Positions 17,206 to 21,511 of a DNA stretch of 30,140 nt are shown here, piece by piece. Below the pieces are notes generated by a model that was not told the DNA's origin, did no database searches, and saw only the letters and a list, made by a program, of their open reading frames with translations. Made by a program: the position numbers and the translations under genes. This DNA comes from Thermoproteota archaeon (GTDB taxonomy: Archaea; Korarchaeota; Korarchaeia; Korarchaeales; Korarchaeaceae): the NCBI GenBank assembly GCA_021158805.1, contig JAGGTZ010000032.1, forward strand, positions 1 through 30,140. The letters are read 5' to 3'. The stretch's first letter is position 1, and each line of letters begins with the position of its first letter.

Positions 17206-17922
17206 TTAGATGAAATTATTCCTCCAACTTTTTATCCTCAGAAGCATCCTCCTGAAATCATCGCTTCTAAACAGATGTCTCCTCTCCGGGTTTATTAGAA
17301 GGTACGGAATTTCTCCTCTCATACCAGGGATTACTCTCCTAGGGTAGTTCTCCTCAGAAACATAAAGTGATACTCCAACGGTCTTCCTGTGTGTTAGAAG
17401 CGCTTCTGGGCTCTGTCCATGGACATAGATTATTCCAGCCCTGTTATCAATGAGCTCATCTACAACTAATTCAGACCTCTTACCAATTAGTTCAAAAGCC
17501 ATATATTGATGTCTCGTAACCTTACTCATGAGCGATTGTAGCTTTCTGGCAGCTATCTTGGGATTATCTCCTATAGGCTTATTTGATGGCCTAACTACTA
17601 AGAAATCTGCATCTATCAGATAAGCCAACTTAACTGCCTCTTCAATGCTCTTTATGGACGCATTAGCTATATGAGGATTCGGAGAGAATACATTCGTATC
17701 TACTTCTGGCGATCTGACTGCTACTGGTACATCAACATTCCTTAAAGAATCCTTGAGGGCAGAGAGAACCGATCTATGCATTAGGGAGGGTAAGTAATGA
17801 GGTGGTTCGGTAGATATTACTAATCCCTCGCAACCGCTCCTCAAAAGGAAACTAGCTATTTCTGGAACCTCAGCACCCCATAAGAAATCTGTTGAACACA
17901 TGATAACCAGTCGATCCGGCAC
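17206..17922 (-). CDS. Divergent TIM-barrel protein, xylose-isomerase/AP-endonuclease-2-like
   Basis: 238 aa with alternating strand-helix pattern: LVIMCSTDFLWG, CEGLVISTEPPHYLPSLM, DVPVAVRSPE, DADFLVVRPSNKPIGDN, MAFELIG, GIIYVHGQ, YLLINPE. The spacing suggests a small sugar-isomerase-like TIM barrel, but the usual metal-ligand His/Glu/Asp motifs are hard to place, so activity is uncertain. Start is GTG 17922, preceded by AGGGGG on the minus strand; Met8 is an alternative. A TTAAAT-like box near 17958 could be its promoter. A better-conserved relative lies at 20144-20992. Confidence 0.65.
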   Translation of the reverse strand: MPDRLVIMCSTDFLWGAEVPEIASFLLRSGCEGLVISTEPPHYLPSLMHRSVLSALKDSLRNVDVPVAVRSPEVDTNVFSPNPHIANASIKSIEEAVKLAYLIDADFLVVRPSNKPIGDNPKIAARKLQSLMSKVTRHQYMAFELIGKRSELVVDELIDNRAGIIYVHGQSPEALLTHRKTVGVSLYVSEENYPRRVIPGMRGEIPYLLINPERRHLFRSDDFRRMLLRIKSWRNNFI

Positions 17923-18029
17923 CCCATGTTCCCCCTGAGGGATCTACGCTCTCTATTTAAGGTAAATGGTGGTCTTAATGTATATAACTTTGATGCATAG
18001 TATCGATCTTCAGCTTATTTAAAGCCGCA

Positions 18030-18106
18030 TATGACGGGATATTTTTTCCCCTATGACTCATGACTGAAAAATATGATGATAACCTGTTAAAGTGACCTCT
18101 TGTCAT
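18030..18106. repeat. Cluster of ATGAC words, possible operator array
   Basis: ATGAC occurs at 18031-18035, 18053-18057 and 18060-18064, GTGAC at 18092-18096, and the reverse GTCAT at 18102-18106; the last two form TGAC-CTCTT-GTCA. TATGAC occurs again at 18413-18418. The density suggests a binding site array but the words are short. Confidence 0.3.
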
Positions 18107-18148
18107 ATCGGCACTCTTCATTAAAGTTAGGTTGTAGAAGTCACATCT

Positions 18149-18166
18149 ATTATACGACCATATAAT
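18149..18166. repeat. Perfect inverted repeat ATTATA-N6-TATAAT
   Basis: ATTATA (18149-18154) and TATAAT (18161-18166) flank CGACCA. It may be an operator or a bidirectional TATA-like site. In AT-rich DNA such a repeat can arise by chance. Confidence 0.35.
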
Positions 18167-18477
18167 CATCCAAGTGGATTTGCATGGCCTGACATTATAC
18201 CATCCTACTATATGATCTAAGTCTCATTAATAACTTCTCTAAAAGAACATCTACAAAACTAATAAGTCAATGGTATTATGTCAATTATAAGAACAATATA
18301 ACTCTATATGTAAATATAAGAGAGAAAAACAGGTAAAATAGGAAGTATATTAATGGAATAGTATATCTCTCCCATTATCTGATGATGATTGTTCTTGGTA
18401 GGATAATGGTCTTATGACTATTCAAGGTATTGGCAATCATGCTAATCATGAAGGAGAGACGAATAATATAGAAAAAC

Positions 18478-18499
18478 TTATATTTAAATCACATATAAT
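18478..18499 (+). promoter_or_regulatory. Probable histone gene promoter
   Basis: Two overlapping candidates, TTATATTTAAAT (18478-18489) and CATATAATA (18492-18500), lie 40-60 bp before the histone ATG. Either leaves a leader of about 20-35 nt that carries the ribosome binding site GAGGTGAG (18529-18536). Confidence 0.5.
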
Positions 18500-18541
18500 A
18501 GAGTACGGCCCTAATAAGGGTTTGTTAAGAGGTGAGACCGT

Positions 18542-18772
18542 ATGCCGCAGAAACCTGCTAAGCATCTACCTCTCGCCCCGGTGTACCGGATAATAAAGGA
18601 GGCCGGCGCCGAGAGGGTTAGTGATGATGCTAAGGCCAGGCTAGCCTACTATCTCGAGAAATTCGCTCACGAAGTGAGCAAGTACGCGGTCGATCTTGCC
18701 AGGCACGCTAAGAGGAAGACCGTCACTGACAGGGATATAGAGCTAGCTGTTGAGGCCATTTGGAAGAAGTAA
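18542..18772 (+). CDS. Archaeal histone
   Basis: 76 aa single histone fold: a short N-terminus (PQKPAKHLPLAPVYRIIKEA), a central long helix (ARLAYYLEKFAHEVSKYAVD) and KRKTVTDRDIELAVEAIW, with the conserved RKTVTxxDIxLA signature near residues 57-69. It should dimerise and wrap DNA into archaeal chromatin. No tails like those of eukaryotic histones. Codon use is more GC-rich than in adjacent DNA, as expected for a highly expressed gene. ATG at 18542 follows GAGGTGAG. Strongly supported. Confidence 0.96.
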   Translation: MPQKPAKHLPLAPVYRIIKEAGAERVSDDAKARLAYYLEKFAHEVSKYAVDLARHAKRKTVTDRDIELAVEAIWKK

Positions 18773-18800: not shown

Positions 18801-18802
18801 AT

Positions 18803-18877
18803 CGGGCCCGGGGGGACTTGAACCCCCGACCTGCGGCTCCGAAGGCCGCCGCTCTATCCTTGCTGAGCTACGGGCCC
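18803..18877 (-). tRNA. tRNA-Arg (anticodon UCG)
   Basis: 75 nt on the minus strand. The cloverleaf is perfect: acceptor GGGCCCG with CGGGCCC, D stem GCTC/GAGC, anticodon stem GCGGC/GCCGC around loop CTTCGGA (anticodon TCG at 18840-18842), five-base variable loop, T stem GGGGG/CCCCC with TTCAAGT loop, discriminator G. It reads CGA (and possibly other CGN) codons. No intron and no encoded CCA. An upstream ATTAAAT-type box lies 26 bp before the first base. Confidence 0.97.
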
Positions 18878-18897
18878 AAGGATATGACAAATATGGG

Positions 18898-18907
18898 AAA
18901 TTAAATC
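18898..18907 (-). promoter_or_regulatory. tRNA-Arg promoter (TATA-like box)
   Basis: On the minus strand GATTTAATTT is centred near 18903, 26 bp before the tRNA 5' end at 18877, the standard archaeal spacing. It directly abuts the stop codon of the upstream membrane protein gene. Confidence 0.6.
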
Positions 18908-20106
18908 TATTCCTTTGACCCTTCCTCCCCTCCCTTTATTACCTGTCTACTGAAGATGAAAGCCCCTACTAGTATAGCCACTATAGAAATTACTAGGAAG
19001 AACCAATCACCTCTAGCTAATCTCTGGCCAACTAGTCCGAAAAATGCTGCTCTAGGTATTATCGCTAGGACATTAGCTAGGAAGAATATGAGGAAATCCA
19101 TTCCAACAGCGCCAGCTATATATGCCACTATATCTAGGGGGAGGAATGGTACTAATCTTGTGAGAAAGACTACCCACCCACCCCACCTATTGAACCAGAT
19201 GTACACCTTGTTGAGGAGGTCTCCTCTTACATAATACTCCAGTATTTTCTTTCCGATAGCTCTAGCAATAAAGTAGTTTATTGCTGAACCAACGGCAATT
19301 CCCATCCCTCCATATATACCTACCTCTAGGGGACTCATTCCAAGGGCTCCGGCAGCAACTAAGACGGCGTCAGCCGGGATTGGCGAGATAACTGCTTGGA
19401 TTGCCATAGCGGCAAAGAGTCCTATGGAACCATACTTCCTTGTGAAATCGGATATTTCTTCTGCGAGTTTCTGGTATCGTTCAACTCTCTCCTCTATAAA
19501 CTTCAGCTGATACAGGTTGAACAGGAATGCGATATCTAGTATTGCTCCTAAGGTGCTCGGTCTCAACTTTAACCTCGTCAATAGGATTAGGATGGGAATG
19601 GACTCTATTATGTATAAAAGCCAGATTAACGAAGGTTTTTCGATTAATAGTTGCATTAACACCAGAGGTATAGAAGATATTGAAGAGAGAAGAACAGCTC
19701 CTCTTATCGAGACCCCAGACGATGAAAGTAGAGCTAAGGAAAGACCACTACCCCCATATCCTACCGAGCTTAGTCCTTGAGCGATTCCGGATACAAGTCC
19801 ATCCATGACATCGGGCTTTCTCCCTTCCTCCACTGCCAGGAGACCAAATCTTAGGAAAGCCATGGAAAGGAGTCCTATGAAAGAGATTCCGGCTACTATG
19901 AGGCCCCCCACTACTGGATCTAGGTAGCCTATCCATCCTCTAATGACGGCTGCCAATATGGAGGAAGTAGCCAAAGCAGATGCGGAAGTCTTTAAATCTA
20001 TCCTCTCTTCTCTGATCAGATAAAGTCCGGAAAGGCCGGCTATGTGACCGCTAGGATGTGGCCATAGCGGAAGCCATTCCAGTAGACCAGCTAGGTAGTC
20101 TAGCAT
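18907..20106 (-). CDS. UppP(BacA)-like domain fused to DedA-family (VTT) domain
   Basis: 399 aa, many membrane helices. Residues 1-200 resemble undecaprenyl-diphosphatase UppP: AGLLEWLP then PSGHIAGL (6-24) matches the EGLTEFLPVSSTGH motif, and GIAQGLSSVGYGGSG (107-121) matches its second motif. Glu10 and His21 fit E. coli Glu21 and His30, but Glu17 is Ala and the Arg of PGxSRSG is Gly, so phosphatase activity is doubtful. Residues 215-385 are a DedA/VTT domain: YGSIGLFAAM, SPIPADAVLVAAGALG and FLTRLVPFLPLDIVAYIAGA, with its conserved Arg. Some bacterial DedA proteins flip polyprenyl phosphate. ATG at 20106. The combination suggests carrier-lipid recycling; this is inference. Confidence 0.8.
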   Translation of the reverse strand: MLDYLAGLLEWLPLWPHPSGHIAGLSGLYLIREERIDLKTSASALATSSILAAVIRGWIGYLDPVVGGLIVAGISFIGLLSMAFLRFGLLAVEEGRKPDVMDGLVSGIAQGLSSVGYGGSGLSLALLSSSGVSIRGAVLLSSISSIPLVLMQLLIEKPSLIWLLYIIESIPILILLTRLKLRPSTLGAILDIAFLFNLYQLKFIEERVERYQKLAEEISDFTRKYGSIGLFAAMAIQAVISPIPADAVLVAAGALGMSPLEVGIYGGMGIAVGSAINYFIARAIGKKILEYYVRGDLLNKVYIWFNRWGGWVVFLTRLVPFLPLDIVAYIAGAVGMDFLIFFLANVLAIIPRAAFFGLVGQRLARGDWFFLVISIVAILVGAFIFSRQVIKGGEEGSKE

Positions 20107-20143: not shown

Positions 20144-20992
20144 ATGGATATTAAGTCGATGTCAGACTACACCTTTGGGGGGATGAACAATCCCTATGAG
20201 GAACTAAAGAGCGAGGTCACTGCTATACTTAATTATGGCATGGACTTTGTTGAACTCACGGTAGAATGGCCTAACTCTTGGATAGATAATATAAGAGAGA
20301 ATTTAAACTGGTTAATGGATGTTGTAGACTCTTACGATACTTTCTATCTAATCCACTCCCCTTGGTACTTGGAAATAGGGCACCCCTACGATGAAGTTAG
20401 GAGAGGCGCATTAAAGGAGGGGTTCAAAGTGATCGATATAGCATCTAAGCTTGAAGCTCCATATGTCACCTTTCATCCCTTTACACCCGGATGGCTCGCT
20501 ATCCTCAGGGATAAAGCCAAGGAACTAAATGTAGAGGGTTTTAGGGAGCTAGTAAAGTACTCTAAGGATAAAGGAGTGCAGGTGCTAATCGAGAACATAG
20601 ATCACGGAGCTTTTAGATCTCCCTCTGATATTCGGTACATAATGGATAGGGTTCCCGACCTATTTATGACACTTGATATTGCTCACACTTTCTTAAATGG
20701 TGGGATGGAGAAGTTTAGATCATATCTCACTAAATTTGGTGGGGAAATTCTACATCTCCATGCTCACGATAATGACCTTAACAGAGATCTACATCTGCCC
20801 ATTGGAGCAGGGAAGATTCCATGGAAAGATGTAGCAGTGGAACTCGTTTCTCATAATTATAGAGGGACTATAACACTAGAACCGCATGTTTCCGACTTAG
20901 ACTACCTGGCGATATCTAAGGAAAAACTACTCTTAGCGCTAAATGCTGCTAAGAAGGACGCAAATAGCAAGAGTAACCAATATAGAGACTAA
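20144..20992 (+). CDS. Sugar phosphate isomerase/epimerase-like TIM barrel (AP endonuclease 2 superfamily)
   Basis: 282 aa with the metal-site pattern of the xylose-isomerase-like superfamily: LIHSPW, VTFHPF, VLIENIDHG (Glu), MTLDIAHTF (Asp/His), HLHAHDND, LHLPIGAGKIPW and TLEPH (Glu). It should bind divalent metal and act on a sugar or related substrate; endonuclease IV is less likely because the order and length differ. Start may be ATG 20144 or ATG 20159: a TATATTAA box centred near 20137 fits a leaderless mRNA from the latter better. Its end overlaps the convergent PAP2-like gene by 54 bases. Confidence 0.85.
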   Translation: MDIKSMSDYTFGGMNNPYEELKSEVTAILNYGMDFVELTVEWPNSWIDNIRENLNWLMDVVDSYDTFYLIHSPWYLEIGHPYDEVRRGALKEGFKVIDIASKLEAPYVTFHPFTPGWLAILRDKAKELNVEGFRELVKYSKDKGVQVLIENIDHGAFRSPSDIRYIMDRVPDLFMTLDIAHTFLNGGMEKFRSYLTKFGGEILHLHAHDNDLNRDLHLPIGAGKIPWKDVAVELVSHNYRGTITLEPHVSDLDYLAISKEKLLLALNAAKKDANSKSNQYRD

Positions 20993-21511
20993 AATCCCCA
21001 AAGCTATTTGTGCAATGCTGTGGGATCCTGATTTCCATCTAGACCATGCTAGAAGTGGTACAAAAGCAAAGAGCATGTATCCGAGCCACGAGCTATTAAT
21101 GTAGATTAGGAAGGTAGCAGGTCCAGCAAGACCTGCCATGTGGACACTGACCTTCGTATATTTGTGATTCACATAAGCCACGACGGTTGTGACCATGGCA
21201 TAAGATAATGATAACATAGCCCAGAGCTTCCCACCCAGGATTATGAAGATTGCTGAGGCGAGGAAATAACAGTAAATGGCTTGTATGAAGAATGGCCCTC
21301 TGGATGGTCTATCGGGGACTAATATGTCTATTTCTCCCGTAATGGACTTCCTTAGAACCGATATTATGGGACAGAAAGTCACTAAGACGATAGATAGAAG
21401 TAGATTCAGCGGATTAGGGTCAAGAACGTATGTCCCTAAGGAGGCTATCAGTGATATGGTGACTGGCGAGAGTACTAAAGCTATCATTTTATGCAGGTTC
21501 ATCGATTCCAT
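20939..21511 (-). CDS. PAP2-superfamily-like membrane phosphatase
   Basis: 190 aa with about six membrane helices. Degenerate PAP2 motifs occur in order: VPDRPSRGPFF (67-77), KVSVHMAGLAG (119-129, where PSGH or KxSxHxxG is usual) and WSRWKSGSHSIAQIALG (SRX5H, then Gln in place of the last Asp). PAP2 enzymes remove phosphate from lipid phosphates or pyrophosphates, including polyprenyl-PP. ATG 21511 or, better placed for a leaderless mRNA, ATG 21502 (MNLHKMIAL), 24 bp from the TATA-like box. Near an UppP-like/DedA fusion, so it may share the same lipid pathway; inferred only. Confidence 0.7.
   Translation of the reverse strand: MESMNLHKMIALVLSPVTISLIASLGTYVLDPNPLNLLLSIVLVTFCPIISVLRKSITGEIDILVPDRPSRGPFFIQAIYCYFLASAIFIILGGKLWAMLSLSYAMVTTVVAYVNHKYTKVSVHMAGLAGPATFLIYINSSWLGYMLFAFVPLLAWSRWKSGSHSIAQIALGILVSILVTLAICVLLSSI

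Follow-up and report, generated by a model that had tools for sequence, protein, structure and literature searches.

A korarchaeal gene joining an UppP fold to a DedA domain

Within the window, by which we mean the whole 30,140-nucleotide stretch of DNA analyzed here, one reverse-strand frame encodes a korarchaeal polytopic membrane protein homologous to both UppP and DedA, with the order of the two parts being fixed (Table 1). Pfam recognized the VTT domain alone in this protein (PF09335; 74.7 bits, the cut-off being 33.9, over profile positions 1-122 of 123). A PF02673 search of the window protein gave no match at E 1, and the orthologue in genome G018 reached 25.9 bits, under the cut-off of 33.4; the N-half matched UppP by profile and showed the BacA fold. 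Of the HMM matches that a sequence-only reading of this DNA had anticipated, the one to PF09335 thus stood and the one to PF02673 did not, the UppP relationship being recovered through the profile and fold comparisons.

Table 1 Features of the fusion gene and its locus-marking neighbor (window coordinates)
Feature	Position	Strand	Basis or remark
UppP-fold + DedA fusion gene	18907..20106	-	one open frame, 399 aa
N-half, residues 1-205, UppP/BacA homologue without catalytic Arg	19492..20106	-	profile and fold match
First UppP motif, residues 10-21, EWLPLWPHPSGH	20044..20079	-	Glu10 = BacA E21
Second UppP motif, residues 110-121, QGLSSVGYGGSG	19744..19779	-	Gln110 = BacA Q164
C-half, residues 206-399, DedA/VTT domain, YdjZ/COG0398 side	18907..19491	-	Pfam, profile, tree
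VTT_dom (PF09335) match, residues 243-361	19024..19380	-	Pfam
DedA half, first re-entrant tip, Q237...D246	19369..19398	-	E39 position Gln, D51 position Asp
DedA half, second re-entrant tip, R317-LVPFLPL-D325	19132..19158	-	R130 position Arg, R136 position Pro323
tRNA-Arg(TCG), locus-marking neighbor (context, outside the protein)	18802..18878	-	in fusion-free genomes adjoins TIM-barrel gene

When the protein collection was searched at E 1e-3, with 7998 candidates being scored, 24 proteins came back, 23 of them full-length relatives of 396-408 aa with a query coverage of 91-100% (including P0001, the window's own cluster) and the last a plain DedA. The full-length fusion was present in one frame in 13 of 61 genomes; within the phylum these are 13 of 29, all from the window's own family. 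A scan of the collection gave 12 loci, ten of which carry full-length relatives in MAGs of Thermoproteota or Crenarchaeota archaeon. The natural fusion proposed in the sequence-only reading is borne out by this single frame in 13 genomes and 23 database proteins, as is its domain order, which recurs in the full-length relatives and in 13 Asgard proteins.

A TIM-barrel gene adjoins the fusion in all 11 loci compared, and the wider gene order is conserved among the long fusion loci. For comparison, eight fusion-free genomes were searched and the locus was obtained for four (G009-G012, G009 being of the window's genus). In G009, G011 and G012, the tRNA-Arg and the TIM-barrel frame are 30 to 200 bases apart, the remaining matched genes follow in the same order (G012 with a longer unmatched stretch), and neither the UppP half nor the DedA half was found at the locus; the G010 contig stops at the fusion site. 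By this comparison, the fusion gene is either present or cleanly absent at one fixed site. An assembly or annotation artefact that joined two genes has the fragmented state of the window genome (230 contigs, 79% complete) as its sole point in favor, and is virtually excluded by the recurrence of the single frame in 13/29 genomes and in 23 database proteins (one being the window's own), on contigs of up to 359 kb with the same neighbors; two separate genes joined by assembly error are refuted by these homologues. One genome has a second, partial copy, a frame of 96 aa that shares 72% identity with the terminal part of the DedA half (G007:C41:6325-6606).

Neighboring genes

The membrane gene at 20939-21511 (reverse strand) received no Pfam or NCBIfam name at E 1, its PAP2 score (PF01569; 7.3 bits, E 3.5) lying under the cut-off. 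The sequences SVH(M/A)AG and SRW(K/R)SxSHxxxQ are kept in nine of nine aligned sequences, and the gene possibly represents a divergent PAP2 family, presumably with Gln where PAP2 has Asp. It is present at the locus in 4/4 fusion-free genomes obtained; at three of 11 fusion loci (L070, L071 and the short L012), no copy was found next to the fusion. Given the low score and a distribution that does not track the fusion, it was rejected as the fusion's partner. Nor is a PAP2 partner needed, because a separate PF02673 gene occurs in 13/13 fusion genomes (in G004 only as a fragment at a contig start). The earlier proposal that the PAP2-like neighbor supplies catalysis was therefore abandoned.

Apart from a possible geranylgeranyl reductase, no glycan or dolichol pathway genes were seen in the window (by eye, with four genes compared to Pfam), and Rfam at its gathering threshold returned only the tRNA in the gap beside the fusion. 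Between the gene at 17206-17922 and a 76-aa forward-strand frame near the tRNA-Arg (18542-18772), which by eye we take to resemble an archaeal histone, ~570 bases (17975-18540) gave no Rfam match at E up to 1 and hold no frame longer than 64 aa.

The UppP half has lost its catalytic Arg

Active-site positions were tabulated across E. coli BacA, 29 archaeal UppP frames (one being the window genome's own, and L058 being truncated where its contig stops), 30 database UppPs, the 13 Asgard fusions and 26 sequences of the korarchaeal fusion family. Compared to UppP/BacA (PF02673; E. coli BacA 5oon, 6fmt and 6cb2), the N-half falls about 65 residues short of the 270-residue chain, and carries DedA at the C-terminal side of the fold. 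Among the catalytic residues E21, S27 and R174, the first is retained and the last replaced by Gly in all 26 family sequences, with the S27 position being altered. The PGxSRSG loop of BacA has given way to G(F/Y)GG(S/T)G; in the window protein, S173 and R174 become Gly118 and Gly119, and the preceding Pro is missing. The first motif has two more residues between its Glu and its His than that of BacA, so that S27 has no safe counterpart, and the canonical Ser27 loop is probably lost as well; in the predicted structure, this motif falls in the worst-modelled stretch. The BacA E17 position holds Ala in 23 and Asp in three family sequences. Q164 (Gln110) is retained in 26/26, R96 and S113 are likewise invariant, S/T19 occurs in 25, and His21 in 22, with Arg in the other four. 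The changed Glu and the lost Arg that the sequence-only reading had described are thus both confirmed.

In E. coli BacA, the S27A, R174A and E21A mutants retain 0.013%, 0.13% and 1.4% activity, respectively, and none complements, while H30A retains 6% and complements (PMC4641660, in extract). In view of these activities and of the residues lost, the UppP half is most likely inactive as a phosphatase, and binding of a lipid pyrophosphate, as first suggested, would be a likelier role than cutting it. An altered phosphatase that is still active, using S/T19 as its nucleophile and R96 instead of R174, would be in line with the conservation of Glu10 (26/26), S/T19 (25/26) and R96 (26/26), but it would have to do without S27 and R174, the most damaging losses in BacA (PMC4641660, in extract), and with the remodelled loop, in genomes that all have a separate UppP; we regard it as improbable. 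The window genome's own stand-alone UppP retains E21, S26, S27 and R174.

His30 of BacA is replaced in 12 of the 29 archaeal UppP frames, by Gln in nine, including the window genome's own; these UppPs and the Asgard fusions with a changed His30 still keep E21, S27 and R174.

Placement of the DedA half on the YdjZ/COG0398 side

E. coli has eight DedA proteins (PMC10127716, in extract), six of which were scored with the C-half profile, YghB and YohD being left out. YdjZ came first with 92.7 bits, followed by DedA (48.8), YdjX (44.4), YqjA and YqaA (12.6 each) and YabI (7.0). Three sequence sets were used for trees: a first set, from which 16 of 94 hits were dropped as near copies or fragments; an 80-row set with 14 further rows dropped (six near copies, the duplicates L155 and P0038, and L020, L021, L022, L024, L029 and L151) and 16 added; and a 70-row set with 16 rows dropped (near copies, and long branches such as P0024, L198, L199, L028 and L023) and the six E. 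coli proteins added. In the 70-row tree, a starred branch (98/95) placed both the korarchaeal and the Asgard fusions on the YdjX/YdjZ side, together with L072 and the Asgard stand-alone DedAs L185-L191 and L193, and placed DedA, YqjA, YabI, YqaA and the stand-alone DedAs of the window's relatives on the other side, with E. coli being represented by six proteins only, several of them long-branched, and with YdjX and YdjZ flagged by the tool as meeting long branches.

The residues E39, D51, R130 and R136 of the COG0586 flippases correspond to Q237, D246, R317 and P323, each in 26/26 family sequences, and D325 at the second re-entrant tip is equally constant. With COG0586 (UptA, DedA, YqjA), the undecaprenyl-phosphate flippases, the korarchaeal half shares the VTT domain, the D51 and R130 equivalents and a weak UptA match, the best in NCBIfam (E 2e-8, 34.5 bits where the cut-off is 250); it differs in having Gln and Pro for E39 and R136 and in lying on the opposite side of the tree split. 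With COG0398 (YdjZ, YdjX), it shares an RLxPFxPxDxxxYxAG-type motif besides the profile ranking and tree placement, and differs by its Asp at the first re-entrant tip and by the UppP-fold N-half. According to extracts of PMC10127716, the COG0398 branch lacks the acidic residues of the first tip, is the DedA branch nearest to the eukaryotic scramblases, with TMEM41B/VMP1 as its eukaryotic kin, and its members are unlikely UndP flippases. As D246, kept in 26/26, is atypical for COG0398, we speak of the COG0398 side and claim no membership. By these sequence comparisons, the DedA half is placed on the YdjZ/COG0398 side and outside the COG0586 flippase subfamily; the assumption that it is of the undecaprenyl-phosphate flippase type is not supported by the profile scores (YdjZ over DedA), the tree split and the Gln and Pro at two flippase positions.

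Stand-alone DedAs were found in 12 of the 13 fusion genomes and none in the window genome (79% complete), so that the fusion is not the sole candidate translocase. DUF368 (PopT, PF04018) matched none of 20 genomes, including the 13 with the fusion, with control matches in 3/14.

The DedA half might accordingly be read as a general ether-phospholipid scramblase of the TMEM41B/VMP1 kind, with the UppP half serving as a structural or dimerization scaffold only. This would agree with the COG0398-side placement, with the nearness of that branch to eukaryotic scramblases (PMC10127716, in extract), with the loss of the catalytic Arg and with the grouping of the fusion genomes' stand-alone DedAs L106, L108, L126, L128, L153 and L154 with DedA/YqjA/YabI in the 70-row tree; these stand-alone proteins could flip the carrier. 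However, the invariance of E10, R96, Q110 and S113 in 26/26 seems to go beyond the needs of a scaffold, and the Asgard fusions of these two families retain the UppP motifs; we hold this explanation to be somewhat unlikely.

Asgard counterparts and the origin of the fusions

Thirteen Asgard proteins (P0025-P0037; e.g., 488-491 aa in Odinarchaeum) carry PF02673 and PF09335 in the same order as the korarchaeal fusion. Unlike the korarchaeal one, their UppP half is recognized by Pfam, and its UppP motifs are nearly intact: in 13/13, E21, S27 and R174 are present and H30 is changed to Gln. In G038, the fusion is the genome's only PF02673 match. In G233-G236, four Asgard genomes from a single family, uppP and then dedA are same-strand neighbors, the DedA of these pairs belonging to another branch.

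Whether the two fusions share an origin was judged from their DedA halves, with the root and exact sister groups being unsure because the choice of DedAs was guided by how similar they are to the fusions. Derivation of both from one ancestral UppP-DedA protein, split in other lineages, is suggested by the 80-row tree, in which both DedA halves fall into one starred clade (42/80 rows) with korarchaeal stand-alone DedAs outside, and by an hhalign alignment of the two fusions that crosses the junction (E 1e-34). Forcing one fusion clade is not firmly rejected either, at a cost of 10.9 log units (AU p 0.128) in the first set, whose sampling was poorer, and of 9.9 (AU p 0.0525) in the 70-row tree. 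Against this, the Asgard fusions join Asgard stand-alone DedAs and L072 (96/87 in the 80-row tree; 98/97 in the 70-row tree, there also with YdjZ/YdjX), the window's family standing apart. Two separate fusion events are favored by these groupings, and a single origin appears unlikely. L072 itself (L072:9869-10600), which belongs to the fusions' clade, is a DedA from Bathyarchaeum and lies between frames that by eye resemble ribosomal proteins.

A possible lipid receptor for a DedA translocase

We tentatively prefer a reading in which the UppP/BacA fold, having lost its catalytic Arg174, serves a lipid-receiving or lipid-sensing role for the fused DedA translocase. The UppP half would no longer hydrolyze lipid pyrophosphate and would receive or sense a polyprenyl phosphate or pyrophosphate at a pocket formed by Glu10, Gln110 and the Gly loop. 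In archaea, this ligand would probably be of the dolichyl type. The UppP half would then hand the lipid to the DedA half, or gate it, and the DedA half would move the lipid across the membrane, with dephosphorylation being left to the same cell's separate UppP. The Asgard fusions, with their UppP motifs kept, may be the active counterpart that first cuts and then moves the lipid. Such a receptor role is supported by the profile and fold match to UppP, the conserved E21 and Q164 positions together with the lost R174, the separate UppP in every fusion genome, the absence of DUF368 from the 20 genomes, the Asgard fusions and uppP-dedA gene pairs, and the published DedA-PAP2 and DUF368-BacA fusions. 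It is weakened by the DedA half lying on the side judged unlikely to flip UndP (PMC10127716, in extract) and having only one of two phosphate-binding Args, by the stand-alone DedAs in 12 of the 13 fusion genomes, by the near lack of glycan or dolichol pathway genes in the window as read by eye, by the poorly modelled stretch that holds the first motif, by the separate origins favored by the DedA tree and by the uppP-dedA pairs using the other DedA branch.

That the ex-phosphatase acts as substrate receptor or gate and, in addition, that the YdjZ/TMEM41B side handles archaeal polyprenyl phosphates is a combination we consider rather doubtful; if true, both DedA branches would have carrier-lipid recycling as their common original task. 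To our knowledge, hardly any translocase has been assigned to archaeal carrier-lipid recycling. An UppP-DedA fusion in two archaeal groups ties the phosphatase and translocase steps together and points to the scramblase-like COG0398 side, which has so far been discounted among possible flippases. Three of the new findings are the most useful, namely the loss of the Arg in 26/26, the COG0398-side DedA half and the Asgard counterpart with its UppP motifs kept; an active-looking Asgard and a disabled korarchaeal fusion make the question directly testable.

Known fusions of phosphatase and translocase families

DedA-PAP2 fusions (PMC10127716, in extract) as well as DUF368-PAP2, PAP2-DUF368 and DUF368-BacA fusions (PMC9876793, in extract) have been published, so that UppP-DedA is a translocase-phosphatase fusion with precedent. 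Like DUF368-BacA, DUF368-PAP2 and DedA-PAP2, it combines a carrier-lipid phosphatase family with a translocase family; it differs in the families paired and, in Korarchaeota, in the missing catalytic Arg, and is the remaining pairing among these families. No description of an UppP-DedA fusion was found in open-licence full text (supplements, including the fusion list in Supplementary Table 3 of PMC9876793, being outside this scope); the extract of PMC12826051 holds nothing on fusions, and that of PMC4973528 nothing on dolichyl pyrophosphate. The re-entrant helices of DedA models have been likened to those of UppP (PMC7818093, in extract), and BacA has been suspected of a flippase function owing to its interdigitated inverted repeat. 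A catalysis-free BacA fold joined to a DedA translocase would fit this idea, without proving it. Another lipid-phosphatase pairing is seen in P0084, a 454-aa protein combining UppP with PF04608, which we take to be PgpA.
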